From Siphlonurus alternatus (lineage: Eukaryota; Arthropoda; Insecta; Ephemeroptera; Siphlonuridae): 64,000 bases of DNA. Location: NCBI GenBank assembly GCA_949825025.1, contig OX463778.1, positions 40,625,194 to 40,689,193 on the forward strand, read 5' to 3'. This document shows positions 5,344 to 31,227 of this stretch, piece after piece. The notes under the pieces were generated by a model. That model made no database searches. It saw only the letters and a list, made by a program, of their open reading frames with translations, and was not told the DNA's origin. Position numbers and translations under genes: made by a program. Position 1 is the stretch's first letter. Every line of letters starts with the position of its first letter.

Positions 5344-5800
5344 ACAAGTAGTTTGTAGAAGATGGACATTCCTAGCATTTCTTAATTGTGAAATGATGAT
5401 GAATATTTGTATTGAACCGAAGTTCAATGCTGCTTTTAATCAATTTGTGTTGAATTTTGTAAAACATATTTAGTATATTTACAACATCTTTGAAATATTG
5501 TTTGTTAATATTCAGTATTTTTGTGGTGGTATATACATCAACAGTCCTTGTTAGTCTTGGCATATTAAATATGAATTTAACAGCTTTATTTTGTAGAATT
5601 TGTAACGGATCTAAAAGCTTTTTGGTAGCACTTCCCCAAAGAGGAAGCATATAATTAATATGTGAATTTACAAAAGAGAAATAAATTGATATTTTCATTG
5701 GAATTGTTAAATAACTTTTACATCTATACAAAACACCAATATAACTGGATATCTTTTTTTTTTTTACATTATCAATATGTTTTCACCTGGATTAAAACGA
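5336..5800 (-). pseudogene. Degraded LINE reverse transcriptase, C-terminal part
   Basis: The minus strand encodes the thumb/C-terminal part of a non-LTR reverse transcriptase. Recognisable blocks include ISSYIGVLYRCKSYL, then YFSFVNSHINYMLPLWGSA and QILQNKAVKFIF, the standard region downstream of the polymerase core in jockey/CR1-group LINEs. An uninterrupted frame runs 5731-5372. A frameshift near 5395 is needed to continue into SQLRNARNVHLLQTT and on across the hAT insertion, and another indel lies near 5780. Homology fades above about 5800, so the copy is 5'-truncated. It differs clearly in sequence from the intact LINE at 11.7-17.2 kb. Confidence 0.8.
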
Positions 5801-11707: not shown

Positions 11708-11748
11708 ATATTTTATTTTTATTTTTATTTTATTTTATTTTCTTTATT
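11708..11748 (-). terminator. LINE polyadenylation signal and A-rich tail
   Basis: On the minus strand an AATAAA hexamer (11748-11743) is followed immediately by an A-rich tail of AAAAT/AAAAAT units (11742-11708). This marks the 3' end of the retrotransposon, 169 bases after the ORF2 stop. Confidence 0.65.
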
Positions 11749-11916
11749 CGAACTTTTTCGATTGTACAAGACAACATATGTTCATGTCAAAAAAACTTAA
11801 TATTAACAAACATACATAACATCAAAACGCAACACTTTATAAATATAACAAAGGAAAAAAATAAGTATAAAAAAATGAACCACAATATTAACAAAAAATA
11901 TGAACCAGGTTTTAAA

Positions 11917-14900
11917 TCATAAGGATACAATACTCTCAGGCAATTTATTGCTCTCAAAAGCTTTAACTGAATAGAACTCTTTACTTATAAGGACATTTTT
12001 TAGCTTCTTTCGGAACAATTTACAATCATTTATATCTTTTAGGCATTTTGGCAGAAATTCATATATTTTGGCCGTTTGATACATTGCACAAGATTTGTAT
12101 AAATTAGAGTTCAATTTGTCTGTAACAACATTGGATTTATTCCTGGTATTGTAATTATGAACATTATCATTCTGCAAATAAAGGTTAGGGTGGGATTTTT
12201 TAAATGAAGCACAGTTTAAGATGTAAATAGACGGAACAGTGAGCATATTTAGATTTCTAAAATGAGATACACAGGACTGTCCCTTAGGCAGCTTTAATAT
12301 AGTACGGAGAGCTCGTTTCTGCAAAACAAAGCATCTATTTAGTAGGGCTGCCTTACTTCCCCAGTGAATAATACCATAAGCCAAATGGGAGTAAATATAT
12401 GCATAATAAATAGTTAAAAGAGTTTCCACTGAAACATGGTTTCTGATAGTATATAACATAAAATTTGCTGAATTGATCTTTTTGCATACTGAGTTTACGT
12501 GCACACTCCAATCTAAACACTCGTTAACATGCAGACCAAGAAATTTAACAGACTCAGCTCTCTTAATGGTTTCATTACAAATTTGCAATAAGTAACTATG
12601 ACTTGGAATTTGACGAGATGAGTGAAACTGTATAAACTCCGTCTTAGATATGTTAAGGATGAGTCTATTATCATTACACCATGATAGTATCTCGTTTATA
12701 GTTAATCTAGCTTTACGTACAAGTTCGTCTTCAGAATCAGCCGTAACTATAGCTGTGACGTCATCTGCATATTTAACCAAGACAGCACTAGTTACATGTT
12801 CAGGTAAATCATTTGTGCCAGTGTTAAAAAGGGTCGTAGAAACCTTCCCTCCTTGTGGCACCCCTAAATTAACTGGCAATTTATTAGAGATAAAAGAAGA
12901 ACAGTGTCCATCTAATATAGCATTAACCTCGACATATTGTTGCCGATCTGTCAAATAAGAATCTATTAAATTTCGACTATTTTCTTCAATTCCAATGTTA
13001 TCAAACTTATGAAGAATAACATTTTTATTTAAACTGTCAAAAGCTTTTGACAAATCAAAAAATATAACAAGGCAGAATAGGTTTTGGTTCAATGCTGAAT
13101 GAACATAACTTAGGAGATCAAACATGGCAGTATCAGTGGAGCGATTTTTTAAAAATCCATGCTGACAAGGGGTTATTAAATTATTCTCAGTCCTATAATT
13201 AGTAATTTGATCATCCATTGTTCCTTCGAGTAGTTTAGCAAATACAGATGAATTCGTAATTGGTCTAAAATTATTAATGACATTTTTTGGTCCTTTTTTA
13301 TGGTTTGCATATACTTTCGATGTTTTAAGACAACTTGGAAAAACACCCTCCATAATTGAATGATTGATTAAGTTTGAGAGAGGGGTGGCTAATACATGAG
13401 CACAATATTTAACAACAGTATATGGAACCTCATCAGGACCAGCGGCAAGTTTATTTGGTAGAGATTTCATGCGATTTAAGATATAAGCAGGATCAATAGT
13501 ATTAAATTTCAATGTATTCATCGTTTTAGATTGACTATTGCAATTATTAGGATTATTTAGATTTAGTGGAAGAAACCTATCAGAAACCATGCGTTCAACT
13601 GTGTTTACAAAGAAGTCATTAAATAAATTACTTATCAATACAGGATCAGAAATAGTAACCCCATCCGTGCAAATTTCAATATTGCCTTGACTAGATGAGT
13701 TCTTTTTCGTTTTGCACTCTGTATTAATAACTTTCCAGGTAGCTTTGATTTTATTAGTAGCTGTTTTTATTGCTAGATTATTTTCATTAATAATTGCAGA
13801 GGAAATATTTTGCCTGTGCAATTTTAGTTTGTCTTTATATTCAATTTCTTGGGAAGGATTATTAAATTTTACATGATTATGAAATTGTTTTAGAAAAATG
13901 CTCTCTTCCTTAAGATAAGGGTTTTTTATAATCCACAAAGGTTTTCTTCTTTGACAATTTATGATTTTTTTAACTTTAGGAAAGGACTCATTAAAATTAT
14001 AAAGAAATATTTCAAGAAAAATAGACCATCTTTCATCAGAGCTTAAATAAGGATTAAACAAACCCTGCCATTGTTCACATAATAAACGCATTAGAAAATT
14101 GTCCATATTGCACTTATCAAAAACACGTTTAAAAATTACTTTATTTTTAGTTTCATCCCGGGATTTACTGTTCTTAATACATAACTTTAAAGTAACTACG
14201 GTGAATTTGTGATCTGATAATGTTGTTTTATTAGTCTGAAATTCTGAAACAATATCAATATTACTTTTAATTATATGATCAATTAAAGTTGAAGTTTTAT
14301 TTGTTTCTCGAGTAGCGAGAGTATTAATAACTTCAAGTTTAAAAGAACTTAAAATATCTCTGTATGACAATGTAACTGTATTATTTATGAATAAATTAAA
14401 ATTAACATCCCCTGCAATTATGAAAAAATCATTTTTATTTTTACAGCATTTATATAACTTTTGGCAAAGCATTTCAAATTGAATTAAAAAAGGTTTAATA
14501 TTTTTTTCATTAATATCAAGTTTTTGGACTTTTTTCATTTTTTTAGTTATATCTGGAGGTCTGTAAATTGAGGAGAAGTATATATTTGTGTCATTATTGA
14601 TACTTAATTTAGCAATACAACATTCAAAAACCGACTCAGTAGATTTGACTTTAATATTATGTATATTAAAACCAATGCGTGCCAGAATGAGTACTCCACC
14701 ACATTTTTGGACAGTTCTACAATAATATGAAACAATAAAATAATTTTTAAAAGTAACAGTAATAATTTGGTTTTCATCCAGCCCATGTTCACATAAAATA
14801 ATTATATCACAATTTTCATTTTCCAAGAAATATTCAAATTGTTTTAATTTATTTTTTAAACCTGGTAAATTTAATTGTAAGATTTTGAAGTTATGTGGGG

Positions 14901-14973
14901 CTGAACTACTCGTTATATTATGTTTTTTTGGGTTTAATTGACTTAGCGGAGATATTACTAACAGTACTAACAC
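11917..14973 (-). CDS. LINE ORF2: APE-type endonuclease and reverse transcriptase
   Basis: This 1018-residue polyprotein nicks target DNA and reverse-transcribes the element RNA in the nucleus (target-primed reverse transcription). The N-terminal endonuclease (about 28-262) has the expected residues: N35 in LQLNLPGL, E62 in LCEHG, YRPP at 137-140, GDVN at 188-191, D232/H233 and SDH at 253-255. The reverse transcriptase (about 505-790) has NFRPITNSS, QHGFLKNRSTD, FFDLSKAFDS (D640), LGVPQGG (703-709) and KYADD (D737, D738). After PQG the motif reads GKVSTTLFNTGTNDLP, unlike the usual SVLGPLLF form. The C-terminal part (to FRKKLKNVLISKEFYSV) is typical of jockey/CR1-type elements; no RNase H is seen. 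The start overlaps ORF1 by 56 bp in the +1 frame, so translation may use reinitiation or a frameshift. All catalytic positions are intact. Confidence 0.95.
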   Translation of the reverse strand: MLVLLVISPLSQLNPKKHNITSSSAPHNFKILQLNLPGLKNKLKQFEYFLENENCDIIILCEHGLDENQIITVTFKNYFIVSYYCRTVQKCGGVLILARIGFNIHNIKVKSTESVFECCIAKLSINNDTNIYFSSIYRPPDITKKMKKVQKLDINEKNIKPFLIQFEMLCQKLYKCCKNKNDFFIIAGDVNFNLFINNTVTLSYRDILSSFKLEVINTLATRETNKTSTLIDHIIKSNIDIVSEFQTNKTTLSDHKFTVVTLKLCIKNSKSRDETKNKVIFKRVFDKCNMDNFLMRLLCEQWQGLFNPYLSSDERWSIFLEIFLYNFNESFPKVKKIINCQRRKPLWIIKNPYLKEESIFLKQFHNHVKFNNPSQEIEYKDKLKLHRQNISSAIINENNLAIKTATNKIKATWKVINTECKTKKNSSSQGNIEICTDGVTISDPVLISNLFNDFFVNTVERMVSDRFLPLNLNNPNNCNSQSKTMNTLKFNTIDPAYILNRMKSLPNKLAAGPDEVPYTVVKYCAHVLATPLSNLINHSIMEGVFPSCLKTSKVYANHKKGPKNVINNFRPITNSSVFAKLLEGTMDDQITNYRTENNLITPCQHGFLKNRSTDTAMFDLLSYVHSALNQNLFCLVIFFDLSKAFDSLNKNVILHKFDNIGIEENSRNLIDSYLTDRQQYVEVNAILDGHCSSFISNKLPVNLGVPQGGKVSTTLFNTGTNDLPEHVTSAVLVKYADDVTAIVTADSEDELVRKARLTINEILSWCNDNRLILNISKTEFIQFHSSRQIPSHSYLLQICNETIKRAESVKFLGLHVNECLDWSVHVNSVCKKINSANFMLYTIRNHVSVETLLTIYYAYIYSHLAYGIIHWGSKAALLNRCFVLQKRALRTILKLPKGQSCVSHFRNLNMLTVPSIYILNCASFKKSHPNLYLQNDNVHNYNTRNKSNVVTDKLNSNLYKSCAMYQTAKIYEFLPKCLKDINDCKLFRKKLKNVLISKEFYSVKAFESNKLPESIVSL
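12604..13461 (-). other. Reverse transcriptase domain of ORF2
   Basis: Residues about 505-790. The catalytic triad is D640 (FFDLSKAFDS) and D737/D738 (YADD). GPDEVPYTVVKY at the start is the usual LINE fingers motif. Confidence 0.92.
14188..14892 (-). other. Endonuclease domain of ORF2
   Basis: Residues about 28-262, an exonuclease-endonuclease-phosphatase fold with Asn, Glu, Tyr-Arg, Asp-x-Asn and Ser-Asp-His motifs in the canonical order. It makes the first-strand nick for target-primed reverse transcription. The Glu motif is CEHGL, where the family usually has ETWL. Confidence 0.9.
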
Positions 14974-17233
14974 GTGGTCTTAAATTTGGAGGAGAGTGCA
15001 AATGTCCCTGAGAACCAAATTGGTTAGTAGTTTGGGATGTTTGCCAATCAATTAGATTTGCAGTGCTATTTGAACTCTGATTTTCAATAATTTCTATATC
15101 ATTTTCAGGTAAAGATTTGGAAGTGACAACTTTATTTGAATTTTTAGATTGCTTTGCAATGTTCTCAGCATTAGCTTGATCCTTGGACATTAAGTCATTT
15201 GTAAATTGTTCTTTTTTTGAAAGTATATTTAATAAAAATGTTTTAAGTCTAGGATTCAGAGCATTTAAATCAATAAAATCAGTTTGAATCTCAGAATGGA
15301 CTTCACTGATACCTGGTTTACATGTCATATCATGTCTGAGACCCTGGGTACGAGGGTCGTCTTTTTCCACAACAGCCTCAGGAGCAGGTGCTGGCATTCC
15401 GTCGTTCTCCGGAACGAGGCCTGACTCCTCGCCCGGGGTGTTGCCGTCGTTCGCCGAAGCGAGGCCTGACTCCTCGCCCGGGGAAGTGCCGTCGTTCACC
15501 GAAGCGAGGCCTGACTCCTCGCCCGGGGTGGTTCCGTCGTTCACCGGAGCGAGGCCTGACTCCTCGCCCGGGGTGGTACCGTCGTTCACCGAAGCGAGGC
15601 CTGACTCCTCGCTCGGGGTGGTACCGTCGTTCACCGAAGCGAGGCCTGACTCCTCGCCCGGGGTGGTACCGTCGTTCACCGAAGCGAGGCCTGACTCCTC
15701 GCCCGGGGTGGTACCGTCGTTCACCGAAGCGAGGCCTGACTCCCCGCCCGGGGTGGTTCCGTCGTTCACCGAAGCGAGGCCTGACTCCTCGCCCGGGGTG
15801 GTGGTCATCACCATCTTCACGGCTGGCGCAGGCGGTCCCTTCGCTTTTACTGTGTCAGCAGTGACAAGTGGTGGGCGGGAACTTTCTAACGAGGTAGAAG
15901 TCTGTCGTTTCTCAGAATTTGCATGAACCACCAGGAGGGAAACAGGAGGGACACCAACGGTATTAGCAGTTGCTAGTGATGACTTGGCGGACTCCTCATA
16001 GAGTTCTTTAGGTGACGTCTCACGGTTGTTTGGTTTCCACCCATAATATGCTGTAATTTCAATATCCAAATCTTGGAAAATTGAAATTATATCTTTTTTA
16101 ATAATAGACCAATCAAAACCATCCAGCCCACAAGCTAGTCGTGGGATAGCTAGTTTTTTAATTTTTAAAATCTCACAAGATTTTCTAAGGTTTTTTAGAG
16201 CAGAGAGTATATTTGAGTGTTCAGGAAGCTGGTTATGAACAGATTTTGTTATGATGTAAAAAATATATTTACCCTCTACTGATAAGACAGCTACTTGACC
16301 AACTGTCTTAAGTTGACTTTTCAAGAATGGAACTTGACCATACGTTTTCCTTACTTTTGATGCGACACCACGTGTCATTTTGAATTTTTCATCCACGCAG
16401 TGAGCATATGACGTACCAGATGGTGACTCGAACATATTACCTTTTATTTCAATAAAATTAAAGTTCTTATGTTTGCTAATCGTTCGAGTAGTATTGTTTG
16501 TATTTTGTCGACGAAGTCGATTTGTTCTGCTATCCAATTCCGGAAAAGATTCAGGACAGTCAAGTGGTGAAAATCTATTTGTTAATGGAAACGGCGATCC
16601 CCAAGGGTTGTTTTGAGTTTTATGGGTGTGAGTCAAAAAGTCCTGGCCTCGACGATGCTGCTGATTGTGCCGCTGGCGGTGTTGGTTTTGACGCGCATCG
16701 AAGTATCCGCGCGACTGCTGTTGTTGCGGCCGCTGCTGCCATTGCGGCATTCGAGCGAACGACGTCAGCTGCCCGCGCTGAGATGGGCGGTGTGTTGAGT
16801 GCTCAACATTTCTCCAAGGCCACTGTGATTGACTCACCGGCCTGTCAAAATTTGTTGTTTGACGAACACGTTGCTGTTCTATTTTTTCCTGATCATAATA
16901 AATATTTGTAGATGGTATTTCATTTTTTTGACTCACCATAGTTTTAATTTCTTGCTTAAAATCATTTAATATATCTTTAATATTTTGTTGCATCACCTTG
17001 TAGATTGGATGTGATGTAACATCAAATGTTGAGTTACAATTATTAAACAATGAAGCATCATTATAAGATTTGTCACTATAATTATTATTATTCTGCTGAT
17101 TAAAATTCTCCGATGTATTTCTAGCAGGTGGTGGCCACTGCGGCACAAGTGGAACATTTCGTTGTATTCCTGGCGTAGTGAAGTGAGGCGAGGCACGCAT
17201 GGAGTAGTGGCCCGCCATGACGTTGTTCTCCAT
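14918..17233 (-). CDS. LINE ORF1 protein with OARD1/TARG1-like macro domain
   Basis: 771 residues. Layout: an Asn/Gln/Arg-rich, probably disordered and basic N-terminus (1-250, with HRQRHNQQHRRGQ near 185-197) suited to binding RNA; a macro domain (about 258-398); a linker (400-475); nine 15-residue tandem repeats of the type TTPGEESGLASVNDG (478-612); and a Lys/Ser/Asn-rich tail with a possible helix (about 655-695). No CCHC zinc knuckle or RRM is visible, which is unusual for a LINE ORF1. The start is the ATG at 17233; a second Met at codon 6 is possible. In-frame continuity across the macro domain and repeats shows that the fusion is part of the element and not an assembly artefact of two genes. 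By family knowledge, ORF1 proteins coat LINE RNA; the macro domain suggests added ADP-ribose binding or removal. Confidence 0.88.
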   Translation of the reverse strand: MENNVMAGHYSMRASPHFTTPGIQRNVPLVPQWPPPARNTSENFNQQNNNNYSDKSYNDASLFNNCNSTFDVTSHPIYKVMQQNIKDILNDFKQEIKTMVSQKNEIPSTNIYYDQEKIEQQRVRQTTNFDRPVSQSQWPWRNVEHSTHRPSQRGQLTSFARMPQWQQRPQQQQSRGYFDARQNQHRQRHNQQHRRGQDFLTHTHKTQNNPWGSPFPLTNRFSPLDCPESFPELDSRTNRLRRQNTNNTTRTISKHKNFNFIEIKGNMFESPSGTSYAHCVDEKFKMTRGVASKVRKTYGQVPFLKSQLKTVGQVAVLSVEGKYIFYIITKSVHNQLPEHSNILSALKNLRKSCEILKIKKLAIPRLACGLDGFDWSIIKKDIISIFQDLDIEITAYYGWKPNNRETSPKELYEESAKSSLATANTVGVPPVSLLVVHANSEKRQTSTSLESSRPPLVTADTVKAKGPPAPAVKMVMTTTPGEESGLASVNDGTTPGGESGLASVNDGTTPGEESGLASVNDGTTPGEESGLASVNDGTTPSEESGLASVNDGTTPGEESGLAPVNDGTTPGEESGLASVNDGTSPGEESGLASANDGNTPGEESGLVPENDGMPAPAPEAVVEKDDPRTQGLRHDMTCKPGISEVHSEIQTDFIDLNALNPRLKTFLLNILSKKEQFTNDLMSKDQANAENIAKQSKNSNKVVTSKSLPENDIEIIENQSSNSTANLIDWQTSQTTNQFGSQGHLHSPPNLRPRVSTVSNISAKSIKPKKT
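15398..15802 (-). repeat. 45-bp coding minisatellite in ORF1, nine units
   Basis: Nine head-to-tail 45-bp units (405 bp) encode the 15-residue repeat TTPGEESGLASVNDG with few substitutions. The array is strikingly GC-rich, with CpG-rich GCCCGGGG blocks, inside an AT-rich gene. Its length is a multiple of three in every frame, which also makes long stop-free but meaningless frames on the plus strand. Unit number probably varies between copies of the element. Confidence 0.92.
16040..16462 (-). other. Macro domain, TARG1/OARD1-like, within ORF1
   Basis: Residues about 258-398. Diagnostic blocks run in the order of human OARD1 (TARG1): IKGNMFESP (263-271), AHCVDEKFKMTRGVA (277-291), GQVAVLSVEGKYIFYIITK (312-330), LAIPRLACGLDGFDW (361-375) and IEITAY near 391-396. 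OARD1 uses a Lys in its ITK motif and an Asp in its GCGLD motif to remove ADP-ribose from acidic residues; the equivalents here, K330 and D371, are both present. The MGAG loop of OARD1 is MTRG here. The fold assignment is strong by motif; enzymatic activity is inferred. Confidence 0.87.
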
Positions 17234-17420
17234 GAACTAAACACACTTTTATTCCAGTTAAAACACACTAAATACACGATTGTAATATTTCACTTGATGA
17301 TAAAGAACTTCAACTTTCCGATGAGCGACTTTGTAAGTTGTTTTGAGATGTAATAATACTTAATTTCTCAAAAAATTATGTAGCACGATAAGAAAAAGAA
17401 CTAGTATCGGCGGTGCTGTA

Positions 17421-31019: not shown

Positions 31020-31227
31020 ATCAGTATTATTGGTGACTTTGGCTTGTATTTTGTTTTTATTATTATTGTCAGTGATTGTGTTTGATAGTGTTAAATAACT
31101 TATGTAAATGTGTTTAAGTTTGATGTATTTATGTTGTATTTTGTCCAATTTTGACTTGAACATATGTTTGTCTTGTACAACCAAAAAGAAGTTCCAAAAT
31201 AAAAATAAATAAATAAATAAATAAATC
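31020..31227 (+). mobile_element. Probable LINE or SINE 3' end with (AAAT)n tail
   Basis: A TG-rich, stop-rich segment of about 180 bp ends in GAAGTTCCAAAATAAAAATA followed by (AAAT)n (31197-31226), the form of a retroposon 3' terminus inserted on the plus strand. No coding part is attached, so it would be severely 5'-truncated. The source family is not identified. Confidence 0.4.

Follow-up and report, generated by a model that had tools for sequence, protein, structure and literature searches.

The ORF1 protein of a recently expanded LINE retrotransposon in Siphlonurus alternatus carries a macro domain of the TARG1/OARD1 type. The element lies on the minus strand of the window, by which we mean the whole stretch of 64,000 nucleotides that was analysed. 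A sequence-only reading of this DNA had proposed that such a domain is built into the ORF1 protein of a LINE. The proposal is supported by sequence comparison, by the predicted fold and the catalytic residues, by the number of copies and by purifying selection.

General features of the element

The features of the window copy, all on the minus strand, are given below.

11709..17418, minus strand: whole LINE copy, about 5.7 kb, starting 7 nt inside the 5′ end shared by most copies and with their common 3′ end and A-rich tail
17234..17418, minus strand: 5′ UTR, 185 nt in the window copy (192 nt in 23 of 26 copies)
14918..17233, minus strand: ORF1, an open frame of 771 aa
16931..17008, minus strand: predicted helix, ORF1 residues 76-101 (low-confidence model)
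16469..16918, minus strand: Q/R-rich basic linker, ORF1 residues 106-255, net charge +12
16034..16471, minus strand: TARG1/OARD1-type macro domain, ORF1 residues 255-400 (sequence and predicted fold)
16244..16246, minus strand: codon of K330, aligned with TARG1 Lys84
16121..16123, minus strand: codon of D371, aligned with TARG1 residue 125 (Asp in the PDB sequence)
15399..15802, minus strand: nine 45-bp tandem repeats within the acidic tail of ORF1
14923..14929, minus strand: A7 run just 5′ of the ORF1 stop, a candidate site for shifting into ORF2
11917..14979, minus strand: ORF2 open frame, apurinic-type endonuclease and reverse transcriptase
14206..14892, minus strand: endonuclease domain (PF03372, E 0.022, below the cut-off; conserved positions kept)
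12526..13293, minus strand: reverse transcriptase domain (PF00078, E 1.5e-28)
11709..11916, minus strand: 3′ UTR and A-rich (AAAATA)n tail

The overlap of ORF1 with a downstream endonuclease/reverse transcriptase frame, claimed from the letters, is present: the two frames share approximately 60 nt and ORF2 is open along its whole length. The same holds for the basic N-terminal part and the repeat tail of ORF1, seen in the positive charge of the linker and in the nine repeats. The element has the properties of a LINE, namely an ORF2 with endonuclease and reverse transcriptase lying 3′ of ORF1 (in the window copy and in all eight copies fetched from a second family, B), and many copies with common ends, unrelated flanks and an A-rich 3′ tail. 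At the window copy, the only one searched for a target-site duplication, none stood out above shuffles. Macro was the sole domain that hmmscan listed for ORF1 at E ≤ 1, as against the domains that mark ORF1 types I-IV (RRM-CCHC, coiled coil-RRM-CTD, PHD, esterase), a search which diverged RRMs can escape.

Elsewhere in the window, a 5S rRNA-like match at 683-804 barely exceeds the Rfam cut-off (39.1 versus 38 bits), and ARAGORN found no tRNA. A remnant of the C-terminus of another LINE reverse transcriptase lies at 5375-5782 on the minus strand, and the stretch 31149-31225, which matches the 3′ end of the window element at 81% over 78 columns, appears to be the 3′ end of a related LINE.

Copies in the genome

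The genome searched comprises 455,680,777 bases in 102 contigs. Searching it with ORF1 yielded 60 matches, and the locus counts are lower bounds, 58 of 517 candidates having been scored. Family A numbers at least 30 loci at 98-100% identity to the window ORF1, 26 of them spanning residues 1-771, while family B has at least 28, of which 26 show 58% identity over residues 1-771 and two were matched in two pieces, at 60% and 42-44%. Across these 58 loci there is no stop codon inside the match.

Most A copies with an ORF1 start (23 of 26) have the same first nucleotide, 192 nt 5′ of the ATG, and differ in the DNA upstream of it; the window copy starts 7 nt after this common 5′ end, and L051 and L052 start further in. 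A common 3′ end was found in 15 of the 16 fetched 3′ regions, the one without it being L068. It is followed by an A-rich tail, which varies in length, and then by DNA that is unrelated between copies. By ungapped comparison over 2313 nt, 21 of the 25 other A copies have two to six differences from the window ORF1; the remaining four (one with 41 differences, three with more than 1200) have frames of another length, for which the count means nothing. In family B, where 5368 nt were compared, seven copies show 2-4 differences from an eighth (26 in one of them). All eight B copies fetched, from the at least 28 loci, hold a macro ORF1 frame of 789 aa together with an ORF2 frame of 1013 aa, the latter 65-66% identical to the window ORF2. 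The small number of differences, the stop-free frames and the presence of ORF1 and ORF2 together indicate that families A and B are young and intact. The sequence-only reading had looked to multiple copies of the same architecture for support, and to a domain found only in this copy as evidence against itself; the eight B copies and the 58 or more stop-free loci, at least 30 of A and at least 28 of B, agree with the former.

The macro domain

Sequence search matched the ORF1 macro domain to human TARG1 with an E value of 3.5e-25, which rules out a chance resemblance of motifs. Structure prediction, named earlier as a check, gave a macro fold within 1.0 Å of TARG1, and among macrodomains of known structure TARG1 is the closest both by sequence and by fold. 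The catalytic pair of TARG1, Lys84 and Asp125, is retained in ORF1 as K330 and D371. Of 19 macro representatives from the S. alternatus genome (described below), 18 have the pair as well, as does the public protein P0001. Judging from these residues, the ORF1 domain is probably an ADP-ribosylhydrolase. In the one exception, representative H (L100, G000:C3:10610675-10611200, a 568-aa frame), Arg and Asn replace the pair; it is a natural dyad-lacking variant and indicates that the domain can persist without the dyad.

TARG1 (OARD1, C6orf130), an ALC1-like macrodomain hydrolase, thus has its fold, sequence class and Lys84/Asp125 dyad in common with the ORF1 domain. TARG1 is, however, a minimal stand-alone cellular protein (PMC7050489), whereas the ORF1 domain is part of a 771-aa retrotransposon protein. 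In the macrodomain of the antitoxin DarG, the partner of bacterial DarT, the lysine is the sole dyad residue present (PMC7050489), whereas the ORF1 domain keeps both residues.

Among predicted viral proteins, the best match to the model of ORF1 residues 245-408 (ma08d80971320) comes from Kadipiro virus, whose putative VP8 is 32% identical (E 1.2e-16), and some viruses may hold similar TARG1-like domains. A scan of viral contigs with a two-row macro alignment returned no relatives.

A model of the whole of ORF1, built from two sequences, was of low confidence (pLDDT 34.4), so the roles suggested below for the helix and linker are weak ones. Residues 71-105 show 60% identity to P0001. Between families A and B the repeat tail (15399-15802) has a pS of 0.25, compared with 0.54-0.72 for other parts of ORF1, as if the 45-bp repeats had been homogenised or exchanged between the two families.

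Selection

Pairs of families give a dN/dS of about 0.1 for the macro domain (range 0.07-0.20), similar to that of the endonuclease, these ratios being rough because synonymous change is near saturation in several pairs. For the pair A/B, the macro domain shows a dN of 0.20 and a dN/dS of 0.086 (0.103 with slightly wider bounds), the endonuclease a dN/dS of 0.124, and four other parts of ORF1 values of 0.30-0.71. Ten of 13 macro pairs lie at 0.069-0.198 (for example, C/L 0.09, D/J 0.115, R/S 0.116 and F/G 0.118; the highest is E/R, 0.198), two have saturated synonymous sites, and the near-identical pair I/M gives 0.26. The macro domain is under purifying selection; a functionless passenger would look otherwise.

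ORF2 and its expression

Aligned with 10 relatives, one of which is a fragment without most of the reverse transcriptase, ORF2 has the conserved positions of the endonuclease intact and contains the reverse transcriptase motifs FDLSKAFD and YADD; these positions and motifs we take to be catalytic. The reverse transcriptase and endonuclease features also make the window element a candidate member of the Jockey superfamily (CR1/L2/Jockey/Daphne/Crack). The CR1/L2/Jockey LINEs likewise possess two ORFs, with an apurinic-type endonuclease and a reverse transcriptase (PMC4120745). Against PDB sequences, ORF2 matched three R2 proteins (best E 5.8e-8). Few of its relatives carry names, those named being insects, and a scan of viral contigs with ORF2 gave no relatives. 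At 12826-12864 a reverse transcriptase motif reads VPQGGKVSTTLF in the window copy and IPQGGKMSATLF in family B; its counterpart in most aligned relatives is VPQGS-LGPLLF.

In families A and B, ORF2 lies in the +1 frame with respect to ORF1, and no ATG is present 5′ of the endonuclease core. Family A has an A7 run just before the ORF1 stop, in a 70-nt context that is identical in 29 of 30 loci, and the one copy of family B considered (L060) has an A10 run at this place. ORF2 might be made through frameshifting, slippage at the A-run or a non-AUG restart.

The wider group of macro frames

A query with P0123, an OARD1-like protein taken as cellular, gave 304 candidates in the genome and at least 150 macro loci. 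Among the 150 matches listed, 147 lie in open frames of at least 391 aa and 148 are without an internal stop. From these 150 loci, 19 representatives, A to S, were chosen by eye on frame length, score and query range; I and M are near-identical. Two loci with short frames resemble cellular OARD1. L112 has an OARD1-like frame of 201 aa at 49% identity to human TARG1, and the separate locus L113 (G000:C5:3515450-3516200) has a 167-aa macro frame at 54% to human TARG1 and could be a gene, a retrocopy or an exon.

The downstream DNA was read for A, B, C, E and M. An endonuclease follows the macro ORF1 in A, B, C and E. The frame in family C (L087) is 46% identical to residues 5-195 of the window ORF2, and that in family E (L115) is 39% identical to the window ORF2 (E 1.8e-59), with PF03372 above the cut-off. 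The downstream frame of M matches PF14529, “Endonuclease-reverse transcriptase” (E 1e-8). When it was compared with 124 proteins, the best match was P0019 (2.4e-4) and the ORF2s of A, B and E were outside the best eight, which indicates that M is a different LINE lineage; no PDB sequence matched the M endonuclease at E ≤ 0.1. In this lineage (L105, L114; G000:C5:13133057-13134937) a macro frame lies 5′ of an endonuclease unlike the ORF2s of A, B and E, and by count at least 18 loci look like family M, in addition to two near-identical ones labelled I. The other representatives were placed by macro clade only (F, G, R and S with E; D, J, L, O and Q with A/B/C), while H, K, N and P are known as macro frames alone, their LINE status unproven. 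The earlier proposal of a macro domain in a LINE ORF1 holds, with the refinement that the domain is not confined to one element and occurs in many families and in at least two endonuclease lineages.

Among 269 candidates from public proteins, the ORF1 query gave one match with the same build, P0001 (710 aa). It is 52% identical to the window ORF1 over the full length; the macro domain, at 74.6%, is the best-conserved part, the seven other parts showing 33-60%. With the macro domain alone as query, 8 proteins passed among 1367 candidates, including the fragment P0122, which groups with the ORF1 macro domains (tree support 99/98). Callosobruchus maculatus has several near-identical macro-domain proteins (P0124, P0125, P0126 and P0128), of which P0124 (11 members) contains a CCCH-like finger, below the Pfam cut-off, and P0125 is fused to a Rubis-subs-bind part. 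They may be another mobile macro family.

Origin and number of captures

A tree that included 17 macro domains of bacteria and phages, taken from 29 fetched loci, puts the ORF1 domains together with animal OARD1 on one side (support 94/90, slightly below the program's star). This counts, though not decisively, against a bacterial or phage macro domain as the nearest kin, and it favours, short of proof, an animal-type source. Of the suggestion that the element captured a host ADP-ribose eraser, the animal-type source is thus the favoured part, at that same support, and the eraser activity is surmised from the residues.

A tree of 31 rows, including 20 ORF1 rows and four bacterial rows, places A, B, C, D, J, L, O and Q with P0001 and P0122 in one clade (100/99) and E, F, G, R and S in a separate one (99/98), and a single clade of all 20 ORF1 rows is rejected (p-AU 0.0006). 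A second tree of 23 rows omits H, I, K, P, P0122, P0123, P0124 and one bacterial row, mostly long branches, and keeps three bacterial rows. Here the A-group, the E-group and M together give a p-AU of 0.106 (0.142 with N added), and the A-group, the E-group and N fall on one side at 85/82. Since the rejection vanishes once these eight rows are removed, several captures are not established. A single capture would most simply account for the A/E lineage. The different endonuclease of M hints at a further capture there, short of proof.

Proposed role

The best explanation as a whole, and one that we hold to be evenly balanced between right and wrong, is that of a recently active LINE whose ORF1 carries a TARG1-type ADP-ribosylhydrolase on the ribonucleoprotein (RNP) of the element. 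ORF1 would consist of a helix for self-association, a basic, disordered, RNA-binding linker, a catalytically competent TARG1-type hydrolase and an acidic repeat tail, the roles of helix and linker being modelled ones. Together with ORF2 it would coat the RNA of the element. Host ADP-ribosyltransferases would add ADP-ribose to this RNP or to nearby chromatin, and the macro domain would remove it from 5′ or 3′ phosphates of RNA or DNA, or from Asp and Glu residues of ORF1, ORF2 and nearby chromatin. The RNP might in this way avoid being marked, target-primed reverse transcription at the nick might stay unblocked, or both. That the domain acts on the element's own RNP or at its integration site is a possibility which we place a little short of even.

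TARG1 removes ADP-ribose from acidic residues, O-acyl-ADP-ribose and the phosphate ends of nucleic acids (PMC7050489, PMC6582358). RNA ADP-ribosylation, as suggested in PMC7050489, could mark transposon-derived RNA. The ORF1 domains of LINEs are mainly regarded as binding the transcript, stabilising it and acting as its chaperones (PMC4120745). It is on these grounds that we read the macro domain as an eraser on its own RNP.

The domain might instead serve at the integration site, where PARP would be active at the endonuclease nick and the macro domain, instead of opposing a defence, would read and clear ADP-ribose, tether the RNP to open chromatin and free trapped repair factors. TARG1 is able to release whole polymers and has PARP1 among its interaction partners (PMC7050489), and the retention of the dyad in 18 of 19 representatives suits this function; its sequence predictions are, however, the same as those for action on the RNP, and we consider it unlikely. 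Somewhat more unlikely still is a mere reader or scaffold, an RNA- or ADP-ribose-binding module in which catalysis is incidental, although this would accord with the view of other LINE ORF1 domains as mainly RNA binders or chaperones (PMC4120745) and with the existence of representative H. A pure binder would not need the dyad, yet the other 18 representatives, many of them far diverged, have kept it.

We think it very improbable that the domain hydrolyses O-acyl-ADP-ribose or other esters in place of the type IV ORF1 esterase of CR1/L2 elements, the folds of the macro domain and the ORF1 esterase being unrelated. An esterase type of ORF1 does exist (PMC4120745), and TARG1 acts on O-acyl-ADP-ribose esters (PMC7050489). 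The sequence relationships leave hardly any room for a host OARD1 retrocopy or pseudogene that lies beside or inside one LINE and plays no part in the element. LINEs can copy host mRNAs, and the same genome has the separate OARD1-like locus L112, but at least 58 loci of two families are stop-free, P0001, 52% identical overall, carries the macro domain too, and the domain is selected like the endonuclease. A lone pseudogene or retrocopy is ruled out by these loci, by the B copies with their ORF2 and by this endonuclease-like selection.

Relation to known systems and implications

The esterase type of ORF1 in CR1/L2/Jockey LINEs provides a precedent for an enzymatic ORF1 domain (PMC4120745). That paper, which sorts 448 Jockey-superfamily elements into five ORF1 types, has no macro type among them, and the word “macro” occurs zero times in its main text. 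Among the open-access titles and abstract openings listed by searches aimed at it, none describes a macro domain in a LINE ORF1; Repbase reports, preprints or subscription papers may hold such a description. Viral macrodomains are likewise macro domains within a genome parasite, and in RNA viruses they are seen as a response to ADP-ribosylation by the host. RNA ADP-ribosylation can be undone by the MacroD-like hydrolases of SARS and VEEV (PMC6582358).

It is conceivable, if doubtful, that this animal constantly defends itself against transposons by ADP-ribosylating their RNA, cDNA or RNP, and that at least two LINE lineages have in answer fixed a TARG1-type eraser in ORF1, perhaps independently. 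ORF1 would then combine a coat for nucleic acid with an ADP-ribose eraser in one fused protein. The macro ORF1 is a type unnamed in the five-type ORF1 scheme (PMC4120745). The proposed role of RNA or protein ADP-ribosylation in transposon control could be tested directly on natural copies, which can be compared with a macro frame that naturally lacks the dyad. If the reading is true, retrotransposons would join RNA viruses in the conflict over host ADP-ribosylation. The presence of the domain in a young, multi-copy LINE suggests that ADP-ribose chemistry may play a part in the struggle of mobile DNA with the host that carries it.
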